Shown: positions 1-28,319 of the stretch, piece by piece
Layout: every line of letters starts with the position of its first letter
Position numbering within the stretch: the first letter of the stretch is position 1
NCBI GenBank assembly: GCA_029881995.1
Contig: JAOULO010000032.1
Span: 1-37,321 of the forward strand
Length of the DNA stretch: 37,321 nucleotides
Direction of reading: 5' to 3'
DNA from: Gammaproteobacteria bacterium
GTDB lineage: Bacteria > Pseudomonadota > Gammaproteobacteria > UBA6429 > Thiohalophilaceae
The notes under the pieces: generated by a model
Databases searched by the model: none
What the model saw: the letters and a program-made list of their open reading frames with translations, nothing else
What the model was told of the DNA's origin: nothing
Translations under genes and position numbers: made by a program

Positions 1-3000
1 CATGCTTTAAATACCGTCGCCAAGGTTATGCTGGATGCCTATGGCCCTGCCGATCCCATGGACTCCCCTCAGACTCATCCTTTAGGTTTGAATGTTCCTT
101 TGTTGGAACGCAGCTTTAATGCGCTGGTGCCACAGGCTAGTGCACTTGTACATCGTTTTTACGAGGAACTATTCGTTCAGTTTCCTCAAGTGAAACCCAT
201 GTTTGAGGGAAGTGATCAGGCTGAGCAGGAAAAGAAATTGATCAATGCCCTACAGCTGGTCATTAATAACTTACGCAATGTCGATACTCTTGCCAAAGCA
301 CTGTCAACATTGGGTGAAAAACATCAGCAGTATGGTGTCTTACCTGAACATTATACGGCAGCCGCCAATATTCTGATAAAGGTTATGCAGGAGATGGCAG
401 GTGAGCTATGGAGTGGTGACTTACAAACTGCCTGGGAACAGGCGTTGGGTGTGGTTGCCAAAGTTATGCTAGATGCTTACAAGGAAGTGGATCCCATTGA
501 TACACCTGAAGGTCATCCACTTGGTCTAAACGTACCAGTACTGGAAAAGAGCTTCAATGCCCTGGCTCCCAGAGCAAATGAGCTGACGCTTCGTTTTTAT
601 GAAGAGCTGTTTAATCGATATCCCCAGGTACGGATCCTGTTTACCAATTCCAGTAAGGAAGAGCAGGCCAAGAAATTGGTCAACGCGCTGCAACTGGTCG
701 TATCTAATCTACGTAATGTCGATACATTGGCTAAGGCCCTGACGACACTGGGTGAGAAACACCAGAAATATGGTGCAGAACCTGAGCATTACAATGCTGT
801 CGCGGCAACCTTACTTGAAGTGATGCAGGAATTTGCCGGTGAATTGTGGACACCTGATGTCAAAGCCGCCTGGGAACATGCTTTAAATACCGTCGCCAAG
901 GTTATGCTGGATGCCTATGGCCCTGCCGATCCCATGGACTCCCCTCAGACTCATCCTTTAGGTTTGAATGTTCCTTTGTTGGAACGCAGCTTTAATGCGC
1001 TGGCGCCACAGGCAGGAGCTATGGTGCATCGGTTTTATGAAGAACTATTTAATCGTTTCCCTCAGGTCAAACCCCTGTTTGCGAATACCACTCAGTCTGA
1101 GCAGGAAAAGAAACTGGTCAATGCATTACAACTGGTTGTATCGAACCTGAGAAATATAGATACCCTGGCAAAAGCATTAACTACATTAGGTGAAAAGCAC
1201 CAGCAATACGGTGCTCAGGCTGAACATTATAGTGCTGTCGCCAATACTTTACTTGATGTAATGGCTGAATTTGCCGGCGATCTATGGACTGACGAGCTTA
1301 AACAGGCCTGGCAACATGCTTTAAGCACTGTTGCCAAGGTTATGCTGGACGCCTATTCAGATGAGCCAATCGTCACTGAAACAGAGCAGACGGCAGCGCC
1401 AGAGTCAGAACCACCTTCACCCCAAAAAGAAGTACCACCACATCCACTTGGTCTGGATGTAGAGACACTGACCAACAGTTTTAATCTACTTGCCCCACAG
1501 GGTGAGGTATTAGTTGCGAAATTTTATGAGGAGTTGTTTTCGCAATATCCTGATGTCAAACCGATGTTTGCCAATACGACACCGGAAAAACAACAACAAA
1601 AACTCCTTGCTGCTTTGGGGCTCGTAGTTGATAACCTCAACAACGTAGATGTTTTAGCGAAGGCCTTGAAAGAATTGGGCATTCGCCATCAGAAATATGG
1701 CGCGGAACCTGCACACTACCAGGCAGTTGCCGCAACTTTGTTAAATGTAATGCGAGAGTTGGCCGGTTCGGCGTGGACACAACAAGTTCATGATGCCTGG
1801 ACTCAAGCATTAAATGTAATCGCTAAAGTAATGCTTGATAGCTATACCCATTCGGAGAACGAGACAATGGCTACTAATATGAACAGTGCTGCAGCACTTA
1901 GTGAAGATGAGAATGTGGAATTGACCAGAATGCGTTCGGCGGTCAATGGTGCAATGACAGCAATCATGATGATTGATCGTGATTTCAATATCACATATGT
2001 CAATGACGCGACGGTCAAATTGTTGAGTCAACATGAACAAATACTTAAGGGAATTTATCCAAGTTTTAGTGTTGGTAACCTTTTGGGATCATGTATTGAC
2101 CAGTTCCATAGCAACCCACAACATCAGCGTCAGTTGTTAAGTAATCCAAATAATTTACCGTATACCACAGATATCACAGTGGGTCCGTTGAAATTCCAGT
2201 TAAATGTATCTGCCATGATAGACCCTGGTGGAAATTATGTTGGGAACACTCTGGAGTGGTCAGATGTTACAGACTTACGGCATAAGGAGCATGAGGTAGC
2301 ACGTTTACAGTCTGCGGTTCAGGGTGCAACAACAAATCTGATGATGTGTGATGCCGATCTAAATATTACCTATGCAAATCCAGCAGTGATTACCATGCTT
2401 AAAAAACGTGAGGTAGAGTTACGAGCGGTTTGGCCGGGTTTGACTGTGGATAATTTGATTGGTACCTGTATTGATGGGTTCCATAAAAACCCAGCCCATC
2501 AACGGGCACTGTTGGCCGATCAAAGCCGGTTACCAGCCAAGGCAGAAATCAGTGTTGGTGATCTGGAGTTTGAAGTTAATGCGACTTATATCGCAGGCCC
2601 TAATGGCGAGTACATGGGTAACATGGTCGAATGGAAAGATTTGACCGAAAGTAATAAACAGAAACGCGAAGTTGCCAGATTACAGGCCGCGGTTGAAGGT
2701 TCGGCATCCAATCTGATGATGTGTGATGCTGATCTTAATATCACCTATGCAAACCCTGCTGTTATTAAGATGCTATCGGCACGCCAAGCTGAACTACGCC
2801 AGATGTGGCCGGGGTTAGATACGAATAATCTTATCGGACAATGCATTGACCAGTTCCACAAAAACCCTGCCCATCAACGTGCACTCTTATCAGATAAGAG
2901 TAGACTGCCAGCCAAGGCAGAAATCCAAGTTGGTGATCTGGAATTCGAGGTTAATGCAACCTATATAGAAGGCCCCAGTGGTGAGTACATGGGGAACATG

Positions 3001-4602
3001 GTCGAATGGAAAGACCTGACCGAATCTAACAAGCAAAAGCGTGAAGTAACACGTCTGCAGGCAGCCGTTGAAGGCTCTGCATCCAACTTGATGATGTGTG
3101 ATACTGATCTGAATATTACTTATGCAAATCCATCCGTTATTAGTATGCTTGCCCGTCGTCAGGCGGAGCTACGGCAAATGTGGCCTGGCCTTGATGCGCA
3201 TAATTTGATTGGGCAATGTATTGATCAATTCCATAAAAACCCCGCTCATCAACGTGCTCTGCTTTCAGATAAAAGTCGTTTGCCCGCTAAGGCCGAGATT
3301 ACTGTAGGCGACCTGGAATTTGAAGTAAATGCTACCTATATTGGCGGCCCAAATGGCGAGTATATGGGGAACATGGTGGAATGGAAAGATATCACTGAAG
3401 CGAAAGATGCTGAACGCCAAATACAGGGACTCATTGATGCTGCCACTGAAGGACAGTTGGATAAACGCATAGACTATTCAAACTATGAAGGGTTTATGGC
3501 AGGACTGGGTGAAGGTATAAATAGCCTAATGAATGCAGTAGTTGCACCTATTAAAGAAGGTAAGCGTGTTATGTCAGCCTTGGCTGAAGGTGATTTGACC
3601 AAGAAAATGGATGGTGACTTTAAAGGCGAGTTTGCTGAACTTCGTGATGCCATTAATGAGTCGGTAACCAATCTGTTTAACATGGTTAATGAGATACGAA
3701 GTGCATCCGGTAATATTGCTTCGGGTTCAGGTGAGATTGCACAGGGTAATGCTGACCTAAGCCAACGTACTGAAGAACAGGCATCCTCTCTGGAAGAAAC
3801 TGCATCCAGTATGGAAGAGATGACCAGCACGGTTAAACAGAATGCCGATAATGCCAGGCAGGCTAATCAGTTGGCCTCTGAAGCACGTACACAAGCGGAA
3901 AAAGGTGGTGCAGTTGTAACGAATGCCATCACAGCGATGTCAGAGATCAACAGTTCAAGTAAGAAAATCTCAGACATTATTGGTGTTATCGATGAGATTG
4001 CCTTCCAGACCAACCTGTTGGCCCTGAATGCAGCGGTAGAAGCAGCGCGTGCTGGTGAACAGGGACGTGGTTTTGCGGTGGTTGCCGGTGAAGTTCGGAA
4101 TCTTGCACAACGAAGTGCCGGTGCTGCAAAGGAAATTAAATCACTCATTAAAGACAGTGTTGAGAAAGTGGATGAAGGTTCAAAACTGGTGGATGAGTCT
4201 GGTGCAACTCTGACAGAAATCGTCAGTGCGGTACAGAAGGTGAGTGATATTATTGCCGAGATTTCCGCAGCAGGCCAGGAACAATCATCTGGTATAGAGC
4301 AAGTTAATAAGGCTGTGATGCAAATGGATGAAATGACGCAACAAAATGCAGCATTGGTAGAGCAAGCTGCATCGGCCAGTGAGTCCATGGAAGAACAGGC
4401 CAAGGGACTCATTAAATTGATGGAGTTCTTTGAGATTGGCAATTCAGGAGGAACAGGTGGTTTTAGTGGACGCTCATCCGCTGCATCTACTACACCTGCC
4501 GCTCGTTCAGCAGAGCCGGCAGCATCATCTTCACCAAGGGCAGCAGCAAAGCGTCGCCCTGAATCTCAAAATAATGATGATGATGAATGGTCTGAATTCT
4601 AA
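1..4602 (+). CDS. Soluble multi-globin, multi-PAS methyl-accepting chemotaxis receptor (5' partial), Aer2/McpB-like
   Basis: The frame is open from base 1, and the first residues ([14 protein letters not shown]) are the end of another globin unit. The ATG at 28 is therefore not the start and the gene begins outside the window. Visible order over 1533 residues: four globin domains (residues about 15-160, 161-306, 307-452, 453-615), four PAS domains (about 643-1142), HAMP-like helices (about 1143-1240), and a methyl-accepting hairpin with the tip [21 protein letters not shown] (from residue 1332). A Ser/Ala/Pro-rich tail ends in EWSEF. Each globin keeps B10 Tyr (RFYEELF or KFYEELF), CD1 Phe and the proximal F8 His (108, 254, 400, 563). 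No transmembrane segment is visible. EWSEF fits the xWxxF pentapeptide that tethers CheR/CheB, and cheR lies 22 nt downstream. Inferred role: cytoplasmic sensing of O2, NO or CO through heme, signalling to a CheA kinase encoded elsewhere. The domain assignment is firm; the ligand is inferred. Confidence 0.93.
43..1845 (+). repeat. Tandem array of globin-domain coding units
   Basis: Four in-frame units end at the recurring motif KVMLD(A/S)Y, at 480, 918, 1356 and 1845. The first three units are exactly 438 bp (146 codons). The fourth is longer because of an acidic, Pro-rich linker at about 1357-1440. The end of a fifth unit occupies bases 1-42. Linkers alternate: units 1 and 3 begin [11 protein letters not shown] and unit 2 begins [11 protein letters not shown]. 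This suggests that a two-globin block was duplicated. Confidence 0.9.
1927..3426 (+). repeat. Tandem array of four PAS-domain coding units
   Basis: Four units begin at 1927, 2302, 2677 and 3052, each exactly 375 bp (125 codons). Each contains an N-terminal MMxDxDxNITY strand, a CIDxFHxNPxHQR segment (His at residues 703, 828, 953, 1078) and a closing (L/V)EWxD(V/L/I)T strand (Trp at 753, 878, 1003, 1128). In Aer2-type PAS-heme domains a His in the E-eta helix ligates heme and a Trp on the last strand contacts O2. The matching positions suggest these are heme PAS domains. Units 2-4 are much more alike than unit 1. Confidence 0.85.
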
Positions 4603-4624
4603 TTAAAACCATAGGTGACGTTTG

Positions 4625-5464
4625 ATGCCTTCAGTGTACGAACGGGAATTTGAGTTCAGCCGGAAAGATTTTGAGCATATTCGAGATGTTGTTGGAGACA
4701 GGACAGGTATTGTCCTGTCAGATCACAAAATTGATATGGTCTATGGACGTTTGTCGAGGCGGCTTCGTCAATTAGGGATTAAAAAGTTTGCTGAGTATCT
4801 CTCTCGTTTATCAGAAGATGAACAGGAGCTGATAGAGTTTACCAATGCCCTGACGACAAACTTGACGTCTTTTTTTCGGGAACCACATCATTTCGAATTT
4901 CTCAAACAGACAGGCTTACCAGCACTTTTAAGAAACCGGCCAAATAAAAAATTACGTATCTGGTCGGCTGGTTGTTCAACCGGGGAAGAGCCTTATACCA
5001 TTGCCATGACTGTGAAAGAAGCCATGCTTTCACATTATAACTGGGATGTAAAAATTCTCGCGACAGATCTTGACTCAAATGTGGTGAGCAGGGCCAGTGC
5101 CGGGATTTATACAGAGGAAAAAGTCAATGGCGTGGATAAAGCAAGAATAAAGAAGTGGTTCAGAAAAGGAAGAGGCAGTGATCATGCAGGGCAAATGAAA
5201 GTGTCATCTGATTTGCAGGAACTGATTACATTCAAGCAACTGAATCTTATGCATGAATGGCCTATGAAAGGGCCGTTTGACATTATATTTTGCCGGAACG
5301 TTGTGATTTACTTTAATAAGGATACTCAAAGAGAGTTATTTGATCGTTATGCAAATTATTTGGCTAATGATGGATATCTGTTTGTTGGGCACTCAGAGTC
5401 TCTGGCGAAAGTTAGTGACAGGTTTAAATTAATTGGCAAAACAATTTACCATAAAGTGGCTTAA
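4625..5464 (+). CDS. cheR: Chemoreceptor glutamate methyltransferase CheR
   Basis: CheR methylates glutamates on chemoreceptors using S-adenosylmethionine, setting adaptation. The 279-residue protein has the usual size and both CheR parts: an N-terminal helical domain (about 1-85, ending in the TSFFREPHHF segment) and a SAM-binding methyltransferase domain with IWSAGCSTGEEPYT (about 114-127), ATDLDSN and the late FDIIFCRNVVIYF motif. I chose ATG 4625 because AGGTG at 4613-4617 gives 7-nt spacing; a TTG one codon earlier is possible. It follows the receptor by 22 nt and is followed by cheD after 2 nt, so the genes are surely co-transcribed. The receptor's C-terminal EWSEF probably docks on this enzyme's beta-subdomain, as known for pentapeptide-dependent CheR proteins. 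Confidence 0.96.
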   Translation: MPSVYEREFEFSRKDFEHIRDVVGDRTGIVLSDHKIDMVYGRLSRRLRQLGIKKFAEYLSRLSEDEQELIEFTNALTTNLTSFFREPHHFEFLKQTGLPALLRNRPNKKLRIWSAGCSTGEEPYTIAMTVKEAMLSHYNWDVKILATDLDSNVVSRASAGIYTEEKVNGVDKARIKKWFRKGRGSDHAGQMKVSSDLQELITFKQLNLMHEWPMKGPFDIIFCRNVVIYFNKDTQRELFDRYANYLANDGYLFVGHSESLAKVSDRFKLIGKTIYHKVA

Positions 5465-5466
5465 AT

Positions 5467-6111
5467 ATGTTAGGTGATGATGATAAACCCAGACCAGCAA
5501 AGACACTTCGTGGATTTTCTGAAATTAATCGTTATTGGGATAGACAACGAAAAATTTACTCGGCAAAAATATTACCTGGGCAGTACTATGTCACTATTGA
5601 GGATGAGTTGATTGTCACTGTGCTTGGCTCATGTGTATCGGCCTGTATTCGAGATCCAGCAATGCGCATCGGTGGAATGAACCACTTTATGTTGCCTACT
5701 GGAGAACACCAACAGAAATTATTTGAAAAAAACAGTGATGCTACCCGATATGGTAACTTTGCGATGGAAAAATTGATTAATGATATTTTAAAACATGGTG
5801 GTAGAAGAGAGAACCTGGAAATTAAGGTTTTTGGAGGAGGCAAAGTCATAGAACATATGACAGAAGCCGATGTGGGAAACAGAAATATTAAATTCGTCAG
5901 GGAGTTTCTGGCAACAGAGGGATTCAGGATCGTTGCAGAAGATATGGGAGATATCTTTCCTCGCAAAATTATCTATGATCCAATGTCTGGCAAAGTGCAG
6001 GTTAAAAAACTACGTTCAATGCATAATGATACTATTGCCAAACGTGAAAAGAGTTACCAGAAAGAAATCGAGAACAAGCCGCTTGCTGGGGATATCGAGC
6101 TCTTTGATTGA
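5467..6111 (+). CDS. cheD: Chemoreceptor glutamine deamidase CheD
   Basis: CheD deamidates specific receptor glutamines to glutamates, which makes them available to CheR and CheB. The family's catalytic Cys and His are visible in LGSCVSACIRD and GGMNHFMLP, both in the first half of a 214-residue protein. An N-terminal extension of about 35 residues precedes the conserved YYVTIEDELIVTVLGSC block, and a basic C-terminal tail follows FPRKIIYDPMSG. The ATG lies 2 nt after the cheR stop with no good Shine-Dalgarno sequence, so translation is probably coupled to cheR. Gene order receptor-cheR-cheD-cheB matches the P. aeruginosa che2 cluster, which supports an adaptation module dedicated to the upstream receptor. 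Confidence 0.95.
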   Translation: MLGDDDKPRPAKTLRGFSEINRYWDRQRKIYSAKILPGQYYVTIEDELIVTVLGSCVSACIRDPAMRIGGMNHFMLPTGEHQQKLFEKNSDATRYGNFAMEKLINDILKHGGRRENLEIKVFGGGKVIEHMTEADVGNRNIKFVREFLATEGFRIVAEDMGDIFPRKIIYDPMSGKVQVKKLRSMHNDTIAKREKSYQKEIENKPLAGDIELFD

Positions 6112-6122
6112 GGTAAGAGAAA

Positions 6123-7202
6123 ATGAAAAAGATTGGTGTGCTGGTCATAGATGACTCTGCCCTGATAAGAAAACTTTTAACAGAGTTATTAAATAAAGAT
6201 CCTGAGATAGAAGTTCTTGATGCCGCTGCGGACCCTTTTATTGCGCGTGAGAAAATCAAGAAATTGAATCCGGATGTTTTGACACTGGATGTTGAAATGC
6301 CAAAAATGGATGGTATAACATTTTTACGGAATCTTATGCGCTTACGTCCCATGCCGGTTGTGATGGTATCTACCATGACAGAAAAGGGGGCAGAAGTCAC
6401 TCTTGAGGCACTCGAACTCGGTGCTATTGATTATGTAACCAAACCTAATCTAGATGTTGCCGATTCAATGGGGGATTATGCAGAGGAGATAATCGAAAAA
6501 ATTAAAGTGGCTTCAAAGGCCAAAGTCCGTTCTATTGAAGACCGTGTCAAAGCCGATAAGGTAGAACCTAAACTCAGTGCTGATGCCATTATAGAGAAAA
6601 AGGCGGGTCGTAAATCTCACCTCAAAACGACTGAGAAAATTATTGCTATCGGTGCCTCAACCGGTGGAACTGAAGCTATTAGAGAGGTGATTGAGCGTTT
6701 GCCGGCTAATTCACCTGGAATTGTTGTTACCCAGCATATACCAGCTGCATTTAGTGCTTCGTTTGCCAAGCGTTTGAATAGTGTATCTGCAATTACCGTG
6801 AGTGAAGCAAAAGATGGAGACCAGATAATTCCTGGGCATGCTTTTATTGCGCCTGGCGATAAGCATCTTATGGTAGAAAGAAGTGGTGCACGTTATTACT
6901 GCCGTTTGAATGATGGTCCACCGGTTAATCGACATATACCCAGTGTGGATGTCCTTTTTCGTTCGGTTGCCCAGAATGTCGGCCCAAATGCCATAGGTGT
7001 CATGTTAACGGGTATGGGGGCAGATGGTGCTGAAGGTATGATGGAGATGAAAACAAATGGTGCAACTAATATTGCCCAGGATGAAAAAACCTCTGTTGTA
7101 TGGGGGATGCCGGGAGAGGCCGTCAAAATTGGGGCGGTTGACAAGGAATTGCCGCTGGAAAAAATTGCCGGCAAACTTATGTCACTCATCCAGAAAGGAT
7201 AA
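6123..7202 (+). CDS. cheB: Protein-glutamate methylesterase/glutaminase CheB
   Basis: CheB removes receptor methyl groups when its receiver domain is phosphorylated by CheA. Residues 1-120 form the receiver, with the acidic pair in VIDDSALIR and the phospho-acceptor Asp in LTLDVEMPKMDG. A linker of about 45 residues follows. The C-terminal methylesterase domain (about 168-358) carries the Ser of GASTGGTEAI, the His of TQHIPAAF and the Asp of MLTGMGADGAEGM, so the catalytic triad is intact. Length (359 aa) is normal. The start at 6123 is supported by GAGGTAAGAG just upstream, 11 nt after cheD. It is the last gene of the cluster; the next gene, fliA, has its own promoter. Confidence 0.97.
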   Translation: MKKIGVLVIDDSALIRKLLTELLNKDPEIEVLDAAADPFIAREKIKKLNPDVLTLDVEMPKMDGITFLRNLMRLRPMPVVMVSTMTEKGAEVTLEALELGAIDYVTKPNLDVADSMGDYAEEIIEKIKVASKAKVRSIEDRVKADKVEPKLSADAIIEKKAGRKSHLKTTEKIIAIGASTGGTEAIREVIERLPANSPGIVVTQHIPAAFSASFAKRLNSVSAITVSEAKDGDQIIPGHAFIAPGDKHLMVERSGARYYCRLNDGPPVNRHIPSVDVLFRSVAQNVGPNAIGVMLTGMGADGAEGMMEMKTNGATNIAQDEKTSVVWGMPGEAVKIGAVDKELPLEKIAGKLMSLIQKG

Positions 7203-7288: not shown

Positions 7289-7357
7289 ATTTTAACTCTG
7301 CTAAAGATTTCGTTCCGTATAACCGACTTGGGTAAAGGGTTGAGGAGGATGCGATGC

Positions 7358-8131
7358 ATGGATAGCCATAGCTCTGATGACCAGTCACATGAGAATAGTG
7401 GATATAACGAAGTGAGAAATGCACGTAAGTATAAGGGTGATCAACTCTGTTCAGCCGATGAACTGGTAGAAAAACACGCCTCTCTCGTTCATCGTATTGC
7501 CTATCATCTATCAGCTCGACTTCCTGCCAGTGTGATGGTCGACGATCTGATTCAGGCCGGTATGTTGGGCTTGCTGGATGCCTCAGGTTTGTATGATCCA
7601 ACTCAAGGTGCCAGTTTTGAAACCTATGCCACTATCCGAATTAGAGGTTCAATGCTTGACGAATTACGTCGAAATGACTGGGCCCCGAAATCTATTCACC
7701 GTAAAGAACGGGATCTCATGCAGGCAATCCAGAAAATTGAATCCCGCACCGGGCGAGATGCCCGAGGCCAGGAAATTGCTGATGAGCTGGGAATCTCTAT
7801 CGATGAGTACCATCAGATTTTACAGGAAACCAGTACCTGCCGGGTTTTGAATTTTGTGGATTTGGGTGTGAGTGAAGATCTATTGGGAGAAGGTATGCAA
7901 TCAAGACAACCAGAGCCATTGGCCGATGTGCAAAAAGCGGAGTTTCGCCAGAATCTGTCCAAGGCCATTTCCAGCTTGCCAGAGAGAGAATGCTTTGTCG
8001 TCAGTATGTACTATGATGATGAATTGAATTTAAAAGAAATCGGCGAAGTTCTTGGTGTGAGCGAATCCAGGGTGAGTCAGCTACTGAGCCAGGCCCACCT
8101 TAGAATACGCACTAAATTTAATGAAATATAA
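7358..8131 (+). CDS. fliA: Flagellar sigma factor FliA (sigma28)
   Basis: FliA directs RNA polymerase to late flagellar and chemotaxis promoters. The protein has the family's regions in order: region 2 with HLSARLPASVMVDDLIQAGMLGLLDA, ASFETYATIRIRGSMLDELR and DWAPKS; region 3 with GRDARGQEIADELGI; and region 4 with ALPERE-like SLPERECFVVSMYYDDELNLKEIGEVLGVSESRVSQL. From ATG 7358 it is 257 aa, close to the usual length. That start has GAGGAGG at 7342-7348 with 9-nt spacing; ATG 7349 in the same frame directly abuts this site and is less likely. It stands alone between the che cluster and a terminator, not in the common flhF-fleN-fliA operon. An RpoN promoter precedes it. Confidence 0.95.
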   Translation: MDSHSSDDQSHENSGYNEVRNARKYKGDQLCSADELVEKHASLVHRIAYHLSARLPASVMVDDLIQAGMLGLLDASGLYDPTQGASFETYATIRIRGSMLDELRRNDWAPKSIHRKERDLMQAIQKIESRTGRDARGQEIADELGISIDEYHQILQETSTCRVLNFVDLGVSEDLLGEGMQSRQPEPLADVQKAEFRQNLSKAISSLPERECFVVSMYYDDELNLKEIGEVLGVSESRVSQLLSQAHLRIRTKFNEI

Positions 8132-25103: not shown

Positions 25104-28100
25104 ATGTCGGGCTGCTCGCCATCCTTGATAAACTGGGCCAAAATATCACCACCTAAACCTGTAAACATTCTCTTCAGAGAAAGGTTATTTCAGAAAATGG
25201 ATGTTCTGAAGGAGCACGATTGTATCTGGGTTTGTGCACCTGGTGGCTACGGCAAAACATCCCTGACGAGTAGTTATCTCGAAAAATCCAAAGCGAAGGC
25301 CTTGTGGTATCAGTTGGACCATAATGATGGTGATGTTTCAAATTTTTTTCATTATCTGAGGCAATCTGCCCAACAGACTTTATCGATTACAGATGAACTT
25401 CCTGTGTATTCAACGGAGTATAAGGGTAGTGAAGAATTATTTGCACTGAATTTTATAAATGAAATAAATCATTTAATTGGGTCTCAATGGTTCCTTGTTC
25501 TGGATAATTTTCAGGAAATACCACAAGAATCTGGTTTGCATAATGTCTTGAAACATTGTTTGTTGAATATGCCACCTGACTTACAACTTATTGTGAACAG
25601 TCGTGAAATGCCATCACCAATTTATGCCCGATGTATTGCAAATGAAAATATATCTGTGATCGGAAAAACAGAATTATCATTAACTCAAACAGAAGCTCTT
25701 GAAATATGTAAACTTAAGAGCTTTGAACAAATTTCGGATGAGAATTGTAACACTTTATTTCGCTATAGCCAGGGTTGGGTGTCGGCGCTGGTTTTAATGC
25801 TGAAAAACTATCAGTTGTCAGGAAGTCTGGATACTGCGCCTGACAATGTTTTTGATTACTTTGCCGAAGAAGTGATAAAAAATAGTGATAAGGCAACACA
25901 GAAATTTCTCATGAAAACGGCTTTTTTACCCGAAATTACAGCGGTAATGGCTGATAAGATTACAGGGCAGACAAATTCAGAAAGTATTCTTGAGTTTTTC
26001 TCCCAGAATAATTATTTCACTACACGAATACTCTCGAGTGATATTGTTTATAAATATCATGATCTGTTTCGTGTGTTTCTTATGAAAATGGTCGAGAAAA
26101 ATTTCACTGCTATTGAAATATCTTCATTGAAGAACAAGATTTCATCCGTATTGATAGAAAATGGTGATTATGAAACAGCGGTAGAGCTGCTCGTTGATAC
26201 TTGTAACTGGCAAAGGCTAGGTAAGCTGGCTAGCGAACAAGCTCAAACACTTTTTTTACAGGGGCGTGTAAATGTAATTGAAAAATGGTTAAGCAACATA
26301 CCATATGAAATAAGCAGTCAAAACCCATGGTTGCTGTATTGGTTGGGGGTATCATGCGTCCATTATAATCCAGTCAAATCACGAGATTATCTAGCTGGTT
26401 CTTATAAATTATTCAAGCAGGACAATATGCAAACGGGTGTGGTTTTGTCGTGGGCAGGAGTTGTTGATACATACGTGTATGAATGGGGTGATTTTTCAGT
26501 ACTTGACTACTGGATTGAAGAGGCAGGTCTGATTAAACAGCAAGATATGTCTCGTCTGTCTCCAGACATATCTACAAGATTCATTTTCGCCTTTTTTATG
26601 GCGCTGATGTATCGGCAACCTGATCACCCTGAAATGGATCAATGTTTATCAAGGTTAAAAGAAATATTTCAAAACACTGTGGATTTGCATGTCAAGGTTA
26701 TGATTGGTCACCATCTGGTGTTGTATTATACATGGTGGAAAGGCGATATGGGCGAAACGGCAATGGTGCTTGAATGGTTAAGGCCTGTTGTAGAAAAAAT
26801 CAATCTATCCCCCATGCTGAATATCGTCTGGCTTTGTATGAGAGCCAATTATCAGTCTGTTAGAGGCGAGGCTGAAGAATGTATTCGTTCAGTTGACGCA
26901 GGTTTGCGAATTGCAAATGAAAGCGGTGTTCATCTGTGGGATTTTATGCTTTATTCACAATACGTTTGGGGTGAGTTGGTTCAAGGCAATGAAGAGAAGG
27001 CTTTTCAATATATTCAGAGCATGTCAAATGTTACAGATCAGACGAGGTTAATGAATGTTTGTCTTTTTCATGATACTGCCAGTATTGTTGCTATACGACG
27101 AGGAGAAATTGCACAGGCTAAATCACATAATGCAACAGCGACTGACTACGCTAATAGTACCGGTATGCCGTTTGCCCAAGCCATGTGCTATCTGACCAGT
27201 GCCAGAATAGCATCGCTGAATGGCGGTTATGAAAAATCTGACGACTATATTGATCAGGCAAAACAAATTGGGGAGAGGATGGGATCCCAGTTTATTCATT
27301 TTTTGTGTTTGTTGTTGTCGTGCGTGAATGATGATGAACAGGGAAATGAGAGTTTTATAAAAAACCTACAACAGACTATGGCCTTTGGGAAAAAATATGG
27401 GTTTTATGCACATATGTGGCTATCTAAGAACGTCTTATCCAGACTATGTACGATTTCTTTAGGGAATAACATTGAAAATGAATACGTAAGTGAGTTAATC
27501 AAAAAGAACAACCTACAAGCTAAAGTACAACAGACTTATGAAGGTGATAAAGTATGGCCTGTAAAAATCACAACGCTGGGTGAATTTTCCGTCTTAATTC
27601 AAAGCTCTAAAGAATATATCGACAAAACAAAATATCACAAACCTCTTCAGTTACTGCAGGCAATTATTTGTCTAGGAGGAGAGGATGTTCCTCGTAGCAA
27701 ATTGATTGAATTATTTTGGCCAGACACAAAAAGTAAATCAGCTGGCCATGCTCTGACGACAAATCTCTACCGATTGAGAAAAATATTGAAATCGGAATCT
27801 GCAGTTATTCTCTCCGAAGGGAATATTAGTTTGAATAAAGATTACTGCTGGCTAGATTATTTTGCCGTGCAATCAATAATCTCAGAAATTGAGAATGAAT
27901 TGTTGATTTATAAAACTAATATCGATGAAGAAAAACTACTCTATTCAGCTCGAATGCTACAGAGTTTGTATAAAGGAAAGTTATTTACTAATTGGGAAGG
28001 TGATTGGGTCCATCAACAACAAAGTCGCTTACACCATAAATATTTACGGATAGTAAAAAAAATGGGTACATATTTGATAGATACAAAAAACTGGGAAGAA

Positions 28101-28319
28101 GCTATAGAGTGTTATTCTCATGCAGAATACTATGAGCCATTAATTGAAGAATTTTACCAACAACAAATGTTATGTCATCTTGAAATGGAGAATATGTCAG
28201 AGGTATTAGTGGTTTACAGACGCTGCATGATCAATTTGAGCAAAGGGTTGGCTGTTGCACCGTCACGGAAAACTGAATTATTAAGGCAGAAAGCCAGTAA
28301 TCGCAACTTAGTAGATTAA
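25104..28319 (+). CDS. STAND-ATPase/TPR regulator with C-terminal SARP-type DNA-binding and BTAD domains
   Basis: The 1071-aa protein opens with a P-loop NTPase of the MalT-like STAND class: Walker A APGGYGKTS (residues 45-53) and Walker B FLVLDN (130-135). Winged-helix and arm regions follow, then a long helical TPR-like middle (about 350-800). Unlike MalT it does not end in a LuxR helix-turn-helix. Residues about 817-905 form an OmpR/PhoB-type winged helix (ITTLGEFSV, LLQAIICLGGEDVPRSKLIELFWPD, GHALTTNLYRLRKIL). Residues about 912-1062 form a bacterial transcriptional activation domain (LYKGKLFTNWEGDWV, YYEPLIEEFYQQQMLCHLEM, VVYRRCM). This is the SARP architecture best known from actinomycete regulators. 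The ribosome site is weak. Signal and targets are unknown; the two lipoprotein genes downstream are the natural candidates. Confidence 0.88.
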   Translation: MSGCSPSLINWAKISPPKPVNILFRERLFQKMDVLKEHDCIWVCAPGGYGKTSLTSSYLEKSKAKALWYQLDHNDGDVSNFFHYLRQSAQQTLSITDELPVYSTEYKGSEELFALNFINEINHLIGSQWFLVLDNFQEIPQESGLHNVLKHCLLNMPPDLQLIVNSREMPSPIYARCIANENISVIGKTELSLTQTEALEICKLKSFEQISDENCNTLFRYSQGWVSALVLMLKNYQLSGSLDTAPDNVFDYFAEEVIKNSDKATQKFLMKTAFLPEITAVMADKITGQTNSESILEFFSQNNYFTTRILSSDIVYKYHDLFRVFLMKMVEKNFTAIEISSLKNKISSVLIENGDYETAVELLVDTCNWQRLGKLASEQAQTLFLQGRVNVIEKWLSNIPYEISSQNPWLLYWLGVSCVHYNPVKSRDYLAGSYKLFKQDNMQTGVVLSWAGVVDTYVYEWGDFSVLDYWIEEAGLIKQQDMSRLSPDISTRFIFAFFMALMYRQPDHPEMDQCLSRLKEIFQNTVDLHVKVMIGHHLVLYYTWWKGDMGETAMVLEWLRPVVEKINLSPMLNIVWLCMRANYQSVRGEAEECIRSVDAGLRIANESGVHLWDFMLYSQYVWGELVQGNEEKAFQYIQSMSNVTDQTRLMNVCLFHDTASIVAIRRGEIAQAKSHNATATDYANSTGMPFAQAMCYLTSARIASLNGGYEKSDDYIDQAKQIGERMGSQFIHFLCLLLSCVNDDEQGNESFIKNLQQTMAFGKKYGFYAHMWLSKNVLSRLCTISLGNNIENEYVSELIKKNNLQAKVQQTYEGDKVWPVKITTLGEFSVLIQSSKEYIDKTKYHKPLQLLQAIICLGGEDVPRSKLIELFWPDTKSKSAGHALTTNLYRLRKILKSESAVILSEGNISLNKDYCWLDYFAVQSIISEIENELLIYKTNIDEEKLLYSARMLQSLYKGKLFTNWEGDWVHQQQSRLHHKYLRIVKKMGTYLIDTKNWEEAIECYSHAEYYEPLIEEFYQQQMLCHLEMENMSEVLVVYRRCMINLSKGLAVAPSRKTELLRQKASNRNLVD

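Follow-up and report, generated by a model that had tools for sequence, protein, structure and literature searches.

A tandem string of putative Vitreoscilla-type globins on an Aer2-like cytoplasmic chemoreceptor, and related globins on the CheA and CheW proteins of its relatives

Receptors of the Aer2 type sense O2 through PAS-haem domains (PMC13401364; for the F7 systems, PMC7184735), and the haem sensors named in a review carry either a single globin or up to three PAS-haems (PMC13401364). The F7 gene order at stage 1 is given as antagonist (STAS), cheY, cheA, two cheW-like genes, aer2, cheR, cheD, cheB, an mcpA-like gene, an antagonist and a phosphatase (PMC7184735). Statements on cited papers, here and below, refer to excerpts of those papers. 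In this work, we describe a chemoreceptor gene at the beginning of a 37,321-base stretch of DNA (the window), which is the entire contig C74 of the gammaproteobacterial draft genome G000. It joins a string of globins to four PAS domains and a chemotaxis signalling domain, and in related genomes similar globins are attached to CheA and CheW. We concluded that the layout is new in the number and the reach of its globins, within a known frame, that of an Aer2-type receptor in an F7-like cluster. The anatomy is strongly supported; the mechanism is what we infer from it.

The receptor frame spans positions 1–4602 of the window (1533 residues), and its 5′ end is open at the contig edge. Its features, with domain borders from profiles built on the repeats of the window and of a second contig, C84, are the following (window positions).

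1–127, plus strand: contig edge within the globin array, where the tail of an earlier globin and a linker lead into the first part of G1; same bases as 877–1003
76–480, plus strand: globin G1, pairs with globin 3 of the sister species MC-03
514–918, plus strand: globin G2, pairs with MC-03 globin 4; bases 463–581 equal the end of C84
952–1356, plus strand: globin G3, nearest to MC-03 globin 5, this fork not being settled
1441–1845, plus strand: globin G4, pairs with MC-03 globin 6
1903–2280, plus strand: PAS1, Aer2 type, motifs FHSNP and EWSD
2278–2655, plus strand: PAS2, Aer2 type, motifs FHKNP and EWKD
2653–3030, plus strand: PAS3, Aer2 type, the unit compared with structures 6ceq, 3vol and 4hi4
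3028–3405, plus strand: PAS4, Aer2 type, from the repeat profile and motifs
3406–3705, plus strand: HAMP region, 92 residues of which align to 3vol 141–232 (Aer2, after its PAS)
3868–4338, plus strand: MCP signalling domain; the 303 surrounding residues align without gaps to E. coli Tsr
4585–4599, plus strand: C-terminal EWSEF, a pentapeptide of the CheR/CheB-binding type, from the sequence

Pfam detected four Globin stretches (241 bits in total), PAS, HAMP and MCPsignal in this chain. The profiles placed the globins at residues 26–165, 172–311, 318–456 and 481–620, the PAS domains at 635–760, 760–885, 885–1010 and 1010–1135, the HAMP region at 1136–1235 and the MCP domain at 1281–1460. The original prediction, made from the letters of the window, had described a soluble receptor with at least four tandem globins, each retaining B10 Tyr, CD1 Phe and F8 His, and four PAS units with an FH and a terminal Trp. 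We found these residues in all four globins, together with E7 Gln and E11 Leu, and four copies each of FH[SK]NP and EW[SK]D. No membrane helix is evident in the receptor, where the highest 19-residue Kyte–Doolittle mean is 1.43 (1.63 is the highest among 54 receptors). The four globins were thus confirmed, but their count is limited by the assembly and the real gene is longer.

As bases 1–127 repeat 877–1003 exactly, the window begins inside the repeat array, and contig edges inside repeats rule out four as the true number of globins. The last 119 bases of C84 are identical to window positions 463–581. C84 ends in a 501-residue frame that holds an N-terminal tag (described below), three globins and the beginning of a fourth, and this frame is preceded by fliK, a STAS gene, cheY, a globin-bearing cheA, cheW and parA. 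In MC-03 (genome G017, locus L096), a single contig carries fliK, stas, cheY, cheA with a globin, cheW, parA, receptor, cheR, cheD, cheB and fliA in this order, and the uncut receptor of 1839 residues has six globins and four PAS domains. Because MC-03 has the same block uncut, it is very probable that C84 and the window hold the two ends of a single gene. The first bases of the window are those of the G2–G3 junction, so a G2-like unit should precede G1; this unit, three from C84 and four from the window give a minimum of eight. The joined gene would therefore probably encode at least eight globins, in ∼2,133 residues if the extra unit is G2-sized, and with the four PAS domains the whole chain probably has 12 haem sites. 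Accordingly, the suggestion that one chain could bind eight or more haems may be an underestimate, drawn from a frame that the contig edge cuts short. An array of six units, with C84 joined directly to G2, was rejected, since G1, on a contig that opens with those 127 bases, could not be placed in it; eight appears to be the least count unless the assembly is wrong. A PF00042 search of the whole genome gave eight matches, all on C74 and C84. G018, a third member of the genus, has one contig that stops just past the first globin and another that starts within a globin preceding the PAS, which is how an incompletely assembled globin string would look.

That the count is inflated by misassembly, or by neutral growth of repeats with no function, is highly improbable. 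The contig edges do lie in exact repeats (127 and 119 bases), and the draft has an estimated contamination of 4.16%, with mixed strains possible. However, six units stand on one contig in MC-03, and in a tree of 121 globin units G1, G2 and G4 pair with MC-03 units 3, 4 and 6 (bootstrap 100 each), with G3 nearest unit 5. The units also diverge widely at silent sites while the protein is conserved: when the seven units that are complete in the window genome are compared, the proportions of differing sites are 0.15–0.33 for nonsynonymous (pN) versus 0.64–0.88 for synonymous sites (pS) in 21/21 pairs (the synonymous rate, dS, was computable in 6/21 pairs, the others being saturated). Chance repeats or an artefact as the origin of the string were rejected, because the window units pair at 56–76% amino acid identity and MC-03 has its six-globin gene uncut. 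Of the C84 units, A groups with MC-03 unit 1 and the first globin of L097, and B and C with unit 2. These pairings suggest that the string already existed when the two species separated and was later extended in the line of the window.

The remainder of the chain is of the Aer2 type. PAS3 matches the Aer2 haem PAS structures 6ceq (V. cholerae by its title), 3vol and 4hi4, and its stretch FHKNPAHQR is identical to 3vol. The ligand His of FHxNP and the C-terminal Trp, which mark the Aer2-type PAS, are present as motifs in 4/4 PAS units, one of which was aligned to structures. The Aer2 combination of a HAMP pair and a 36H signalling domain was recovered by the alignments to 3vol 141–232 and to Tsr, the gapless alignment of 303 residues to the latter being as expected for class 36H. 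A C-terminal WxxF ends 51 of the 54 C-complete receptors, including that of the window (EWSEF). Downstream of the receptor, the conserved block continues as follows.

4622–5464, plus strand: cheR
5467–6111, plus strand: cheD
6123–7202, plus strand: cheB
7328–8131, plus strand: fliA (flagellar sigma factor), which closes the block

The F7 gene order is matched in part here, with one cheW and an extra parA; the mcpA-like gene and the phosphatase were not seen among the cluster genes looked at. The parA gene adjoins the soluble receptor, as expected for a ParA-positioned array. The host genome has three COX1-family genes, so that use of oxygen is likely; this family includes oxygen reductases and also NO reductases. 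Further along the window, positions 25104–28316 encode a 1071-residue protein that matches BTAD and, weakly, an NPHP3-like NTPase.

The closest solved structures of G3 are HGbRL, Hell's Gate globin I (HGbI), Vitreoscilla haemoglobin (VHb) and flavohaemoglobins, with HGbRL (3wfw) nearest by sequence (E 5.5e-20). No HemAT-type sensor is found among its 39 structure matches at E up to 1e-5, and Pfam Protoglobin, although it also matches the chain at 66 bits (its own cut-off is 25), falls far below the 241 bits of Globin. A HemAT-type globin-coupled sensor was rejected on this difference of globin lineage. B10 Tyr, CD1 Phe, E7 Gln, F8 His and a 3/3 fold, the last from a model, are all found, and by these comparisons the window globins belong to the Vitreoscilla/flavohaemoglobin lineage and are not HemAT-like.

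We counted the pocket residues in the 121 globin units of the tree, from which 17 loci repeating named ones and units of <110 residues were excluded. All 121 units have B10 Tyr, CD1 Phe and E7 Gln. F8 His is present in 120/121, the exception lying in a group outside the chemotaxis and STAS proteins, and E11 Leu in 120/121, one STAS unit having Phe. Pocket residues are kept in 74/74 receptor, 8/8 CheA and 9/9 CheW units. All five are invariant in the 18/18 units of tandem receptors, whose mean pairwise identity is 57%, with 34 of 140 columns invariant.

Structure prediction, proposed originally as a check, recovered both folds. AlphaFold models of the window sequence, made with alignments of relatives (the A2 alignment took 43/49 relatives), had a mean predicted local distance difference test score (pLDDT) of 85.0 for G4–PAS1–PAS2 and 83.4 for G1–G4. 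The predicted template modelling scores (pTM) were low (0.50 and 0.46, respectively), and so we trust the domain folds and not the domain arrangement. The modelled globin superposes on oxygen-bound HGbI at 1.1–1.2 Å and the modelled PAS on the Aer2 PAS at 2.2–3.3 Å. It is plausible from these models that the globin and PAS folds are competent for haem. The closest globin, HGbRL, is described with swapped proximal and distal haem sites in the excerpt on it, and normal haem coordination is thus not to be presumed.

The lineage raises the alternative that the globins scavenge NO (or superoxide or CO) by the array and shield the PAS-haems, like single-domain NO dioxygenases with a borrowed reductase. 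VHb and flavohaemoglobins among the closest solved globins are in line with this, as are B10 Tyr, E7 Gln and E11 Leu, which we take to be the signature of flavohaemoglobin-type pockets. However, no FAD/NAD reductase domain is among the Pfam matches of the chain, and we regard scavenging as unlikely.

Next, we consider how widespread such globins are. The relatives were the best 80 of 92 loci confirmed in our scan. Single-globin receptors are frequent among uncultured Gammaproteobacteria and contribute 56 units to the tree; Kineobactrum sediminis, a named strain (L155), and Woeseiaceae also have them. Receptors with two or more are rare: in the 80 named loci these are L096 (six), L105 (three) and L120 (two). 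More than one globin per frame was found in 3/40 genomes of the window's family (G000, G017 and G026; G018 not counted). Among 275 genomes across the class, a sample that did not include MC-03 or G026, only the window's genome had two globin matches in one frame (E up to 1e-15). The search of domain architectures, also proposed at the outset, thus upholds the rarity of the multi-globin receptor but finds its one-globin version widespread. What is new is therefore that the globins multiplied and also reached CheA and CheW.

Globin-bearing CheA is found in the window genome, L096, L097, L100, L105, L120 and L154, and in L146 a frame with Hpt and globin is cut by the contig end. In the CheA of the window genome, the globin lies between Hpt and the dimerisation domain. 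It stands before the P3 domain and after the presumed P2 in five complete CheAs, and nearer Hpt, before P2, in L120; the label P2 is our assumption, Pfam having given none for this region. CheW proteins carry C-terminal globins in L111 (one), L144 (one), L122 (two) and L125 (three), and a globin inside CheW in L127 and L134. Examples are these.

L017:13623–16238: CheA with a haemoglobin domain in a linker
L048:2717–4540: CheW with globin, C-terminal (copy of L125, scanned in its place)
L122:3–1322: CheW with globin, C-terminal
L111:198–1145: CheW with globin, C-terminal
L144:5024–6061: CheW with globin, C-terminal
L127:6948–7889: globin inserted within CheW
L134:6951–7892: globin inserted within CheW

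By accession, L120 and L122 share one genome, as do L105 and L125, and these two genomes carry globins on the receptor, the kinase and a CheW together. Their globin CheWs are encoded away from the contigs of the che block, in which cheW has no globin. Globin-bearing STAS proteins occur in L139 and L062–L064. A globin CheA is present with 4/4 multi-globin receptors versus 2/32 one-globin receptors (the window genome was added manually). The globins on CheA and CheW of the relatives look as if the signalling cluster were being filled with haem.

Globins in other settings were also seen. Cyanobacterial proteins have two related globins followed by pentapeptide repeats (L159:8511–10388, L160:7905–9911 and other loci; two were scanned), and single globin genes adjoin some of these loci. 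Myxobacterial proteins with a C-terminal globin are encoded at L174:5055–8432 and L175:5115–8411, that of L174 being a protein kinase with leucine-rich repeats (L175 was not scanned).

The distribution of the globins bears on the view that every globin is a true signalling sensor in a mechanical relay and that the string thus makes O2 sensing cooperative or graded, an effect suggested in the original prediction. Haem pockets are retained in all tandem units, cooperative sensor globins have been described in PccGCS (PMC12805357), and the Aer2 of V. vulnificus has three PAS-haems with differing roles (PMC13401364). We nevertheless consider this view unlikely, while giving it some weight. In the G4–PAS1–PAS2 model, pLDDT drops below 50 at residues 137–154, which join the last globin to PAS1; this speaks against rigid signalling from globin to PAS. 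The linkers between globins vary in length (6 to 29 residues in MC-03) and in sequence, and the same type of globin sits in CheA linkers, at the C-terminus of CheW and inside CheW, with no obvious mechanical path common to these positions.

The tree suggests that globin fusions arose more than once. The CheA label requires four changes (gains or losses), three of them forced by well-supported branches, and the CheW label also four, two of them forced. In L100 and in L154, the CheA globin is sister to the globin on the same genome's receptor (100/98 and 98/88), and five other CheA globins form one group (96/90). The two receptor globins of L120 are each other's sisters (100/100), pointing to a separate duplication.

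The receptors also share a short motif, G-x-[DN]-P-L-[AS]-W, near the N-terminus (for example, at L017:17556–17620). In the 80 named loci and C84, leaving 5′-open receptors uncounted, it is present in 33/33 receptors that directly follow parA versus 0/25 that follow other genes; two receptors with the upstream region off the contig, one tagged and one untagged, were set aside. STAS genes behave likewise: 7/7 that follow parA on the plus strand of the locus are tagged, as compared to 0/21 of the other STAS frames. What carries GxDPLAW right after a chemotaxis-type parA is thus a receptor, a STAS protein or a globin–STAS protein. The misfits are L155, where a parA on the opposite strand precedes an untagged frame of 187 residues, and L127, L133 and L134, which hold tag-like remnants without the Trp and have no parA upstream.

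A second set of 30 loci, the best of a class-wide search, was chosen by ParA and not by globin. Among the close ParAs, 14/16 (the window's included) are followed by a tagged gene, including two globin-free receptors; the exceptions are L216, with a Trp-less variant, and L225, followed by cheR. None of the 14 distant ParAs is followed by a tagged gene (three have no next frame in reach); this division was made afterwards at a gap in E-values, and the counts are not corrected for relatedness. Several distant ParAs precede genes that start like ParB, KKRGLGRGLDALLG. GxDPLAW itself loosely resembles a ParB start (RGLDALL).

From this genetic association, GxDPLAW looks like a docking tag for ParA. 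Partners are described as docking to ParA-type ATPases through charged N-termini, CheW being taken as the partner of ParC of H. neapolitanus, and partners are not always identified (PMC10241942). A text search of the literature for 'DPLAW' returned only unrelated papers. The motif offers a sequence handle on how ParA-type ATPases find their chemosensory cargo.

The position of the tag at the far N-terminal tip would also suit a globin string that is a spacer, one that keeps the CheA/CheW baseplate at a set distance from the ParA-bound N-terminus or from an opposite baseplate, with haem incidental; cytoplasmic arrays are indeed sandwiches of two baseplates (PMC3964821). A spacer, however, does not need the pocket residues that are invariant in 18/18 tandem units at 57% mean identity, even if 34 of 140 columns are invariant overall, and it leaves the globins in CheA and CheW unexplained. 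We find a mere spacer improbable.

The reading that we prefer, and to which we give about an even chance, is that of a cytoplasmic Aer2-type receptor of an F7-like, ParA-positioned array, with the VHb-like globin string as a gas-binding layer. By analogy with Aer2, O2 (or NO) would be sensed by the PAS-haem domains, and HAMP would relay the signal to CheA; that O2 or a related gas is the input is a cautious proposal, made because the four PAS domains keep the named motif residues. The globins would bind the same gas as the PAS domains. They may act mainly by number and local density and not by one rigid allosteric path, as the ill-ordered stretch between globin 4 and PAS1, the varied, flexible linkers and the attachment to several proteins at different points suggest. 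Such a layer could set the affinity range and slow or smooth the response at nanomolar O2, and the N-terminal tag (GFDPLAWM) would dock the neighbouring ParA and thereby place the array in the cell.

If each receptor carries eight globins, each assumed to take up 4 nm, on the 12-nm lattice of arrays (PMC3964821), the globin layer would contain ∼40 mM haem. Diffusive filling of a 300-nm patch would take ∼7.5 s at 10 nM O2 and 0.08 s at 1 µM. The concentration in the layer is equal for one or eight globins; it is the capacity that grows. On these figures, a bolder version can be drawn, in which the array is a haemoglobin body: receptor, kinase and coupling protein repeatedly took up globin, forming a gas store of ∼40 mM that fills in seconds at ∼10 nM O2 and times oxygen taxis, and ParA hands the body to the daughter cells via the portable GxDPLAW tag. 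We regard this version as possible but doubtful.

Several points weigh against the gas-layer reading. The multi-globin receptors are four cases, three of them in one family, and their association with globin CheA therefore does not consist of independent points. The tree has few columns and many weak forks, with 35/118 inner branches open and the bootstrap not settled. The scan patterns held the B10 Tyr and E7 Gln stretches, so that in each locus one unit was partly selected for conservation at these sites; F8 His and CD1 Phe, like the remaining tandem units, are free of this selection. The disorder between globin and PAS was seen in one AlphaFold model, and the count of eight globins joins two contigs that are not connected by reads. 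The dense gas layer is an argument from pattern and arithmetic, and haem, gas binding and behaviour are read here from sequences and models. Still, a chain with probably twelve haem sites and the globins on CheA and CheW of relatives, some acquired on separate occasions, suggest that haem density inside the signalling array itself was selected for. It becomes testable whether binding capacity, beyond affinity, shapes bacterial oxygen sensing.

The original prediction knew of no described receptor with this layout. Consistent with this, neither a poly-globin chemoreceptor nor a globin in CheA or CheW appears, by title or beginning of the abstract, among the best-ranked literature matches on globins. 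The closest relatives in kind are the Aer2/McpB receptors of the F7 systems of P. aeruginosa, V. cholerae and V. vulnificus, with which the window receptor shares the FHxNP PAS, the HAMP pair after the PAS, the lack of a membrane helix, the 36H-type signalling domain, the C-terminal WxxF and the order cheY–cheA–cheW–receptor–cheR–cheD–cheB (PMC7184735, PMC13401364). Unlike them, receptors of the window type have N-terminal globins, one to eight or more. There are four PAS domains here as compared to one, two or three in the named Aer2s (PMC13401364), and parA stands between cheW and the receptor. HemAT-type globin-coupled sensors likewise join a globin to an MCP signalling domain (PMC13401364), but the globin here is of the VHb/flavohaemoglobin lineage, occurs in several units and is separated from HAMP by PAS domains. 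HGbRL of Methylacidiphilum, the closest solved globin by sequence, is also a fused globin; its partner, in the excerpt, is Roadblock/LC7 and not a chemotaxis part. In TlpT/PpfA of Rhodobacter sphaeroides and ParC of Halothiobacillus, a gene for a ParA-type ATPase stands beside chemotaxis genes, as here, and the partner docks via its N-terminus (PMC3964821, PMC10241942); in contrast to these systems, the family described here has a conserved GxDPLAW tag, which is also found on the STAS proteins that follow parA.

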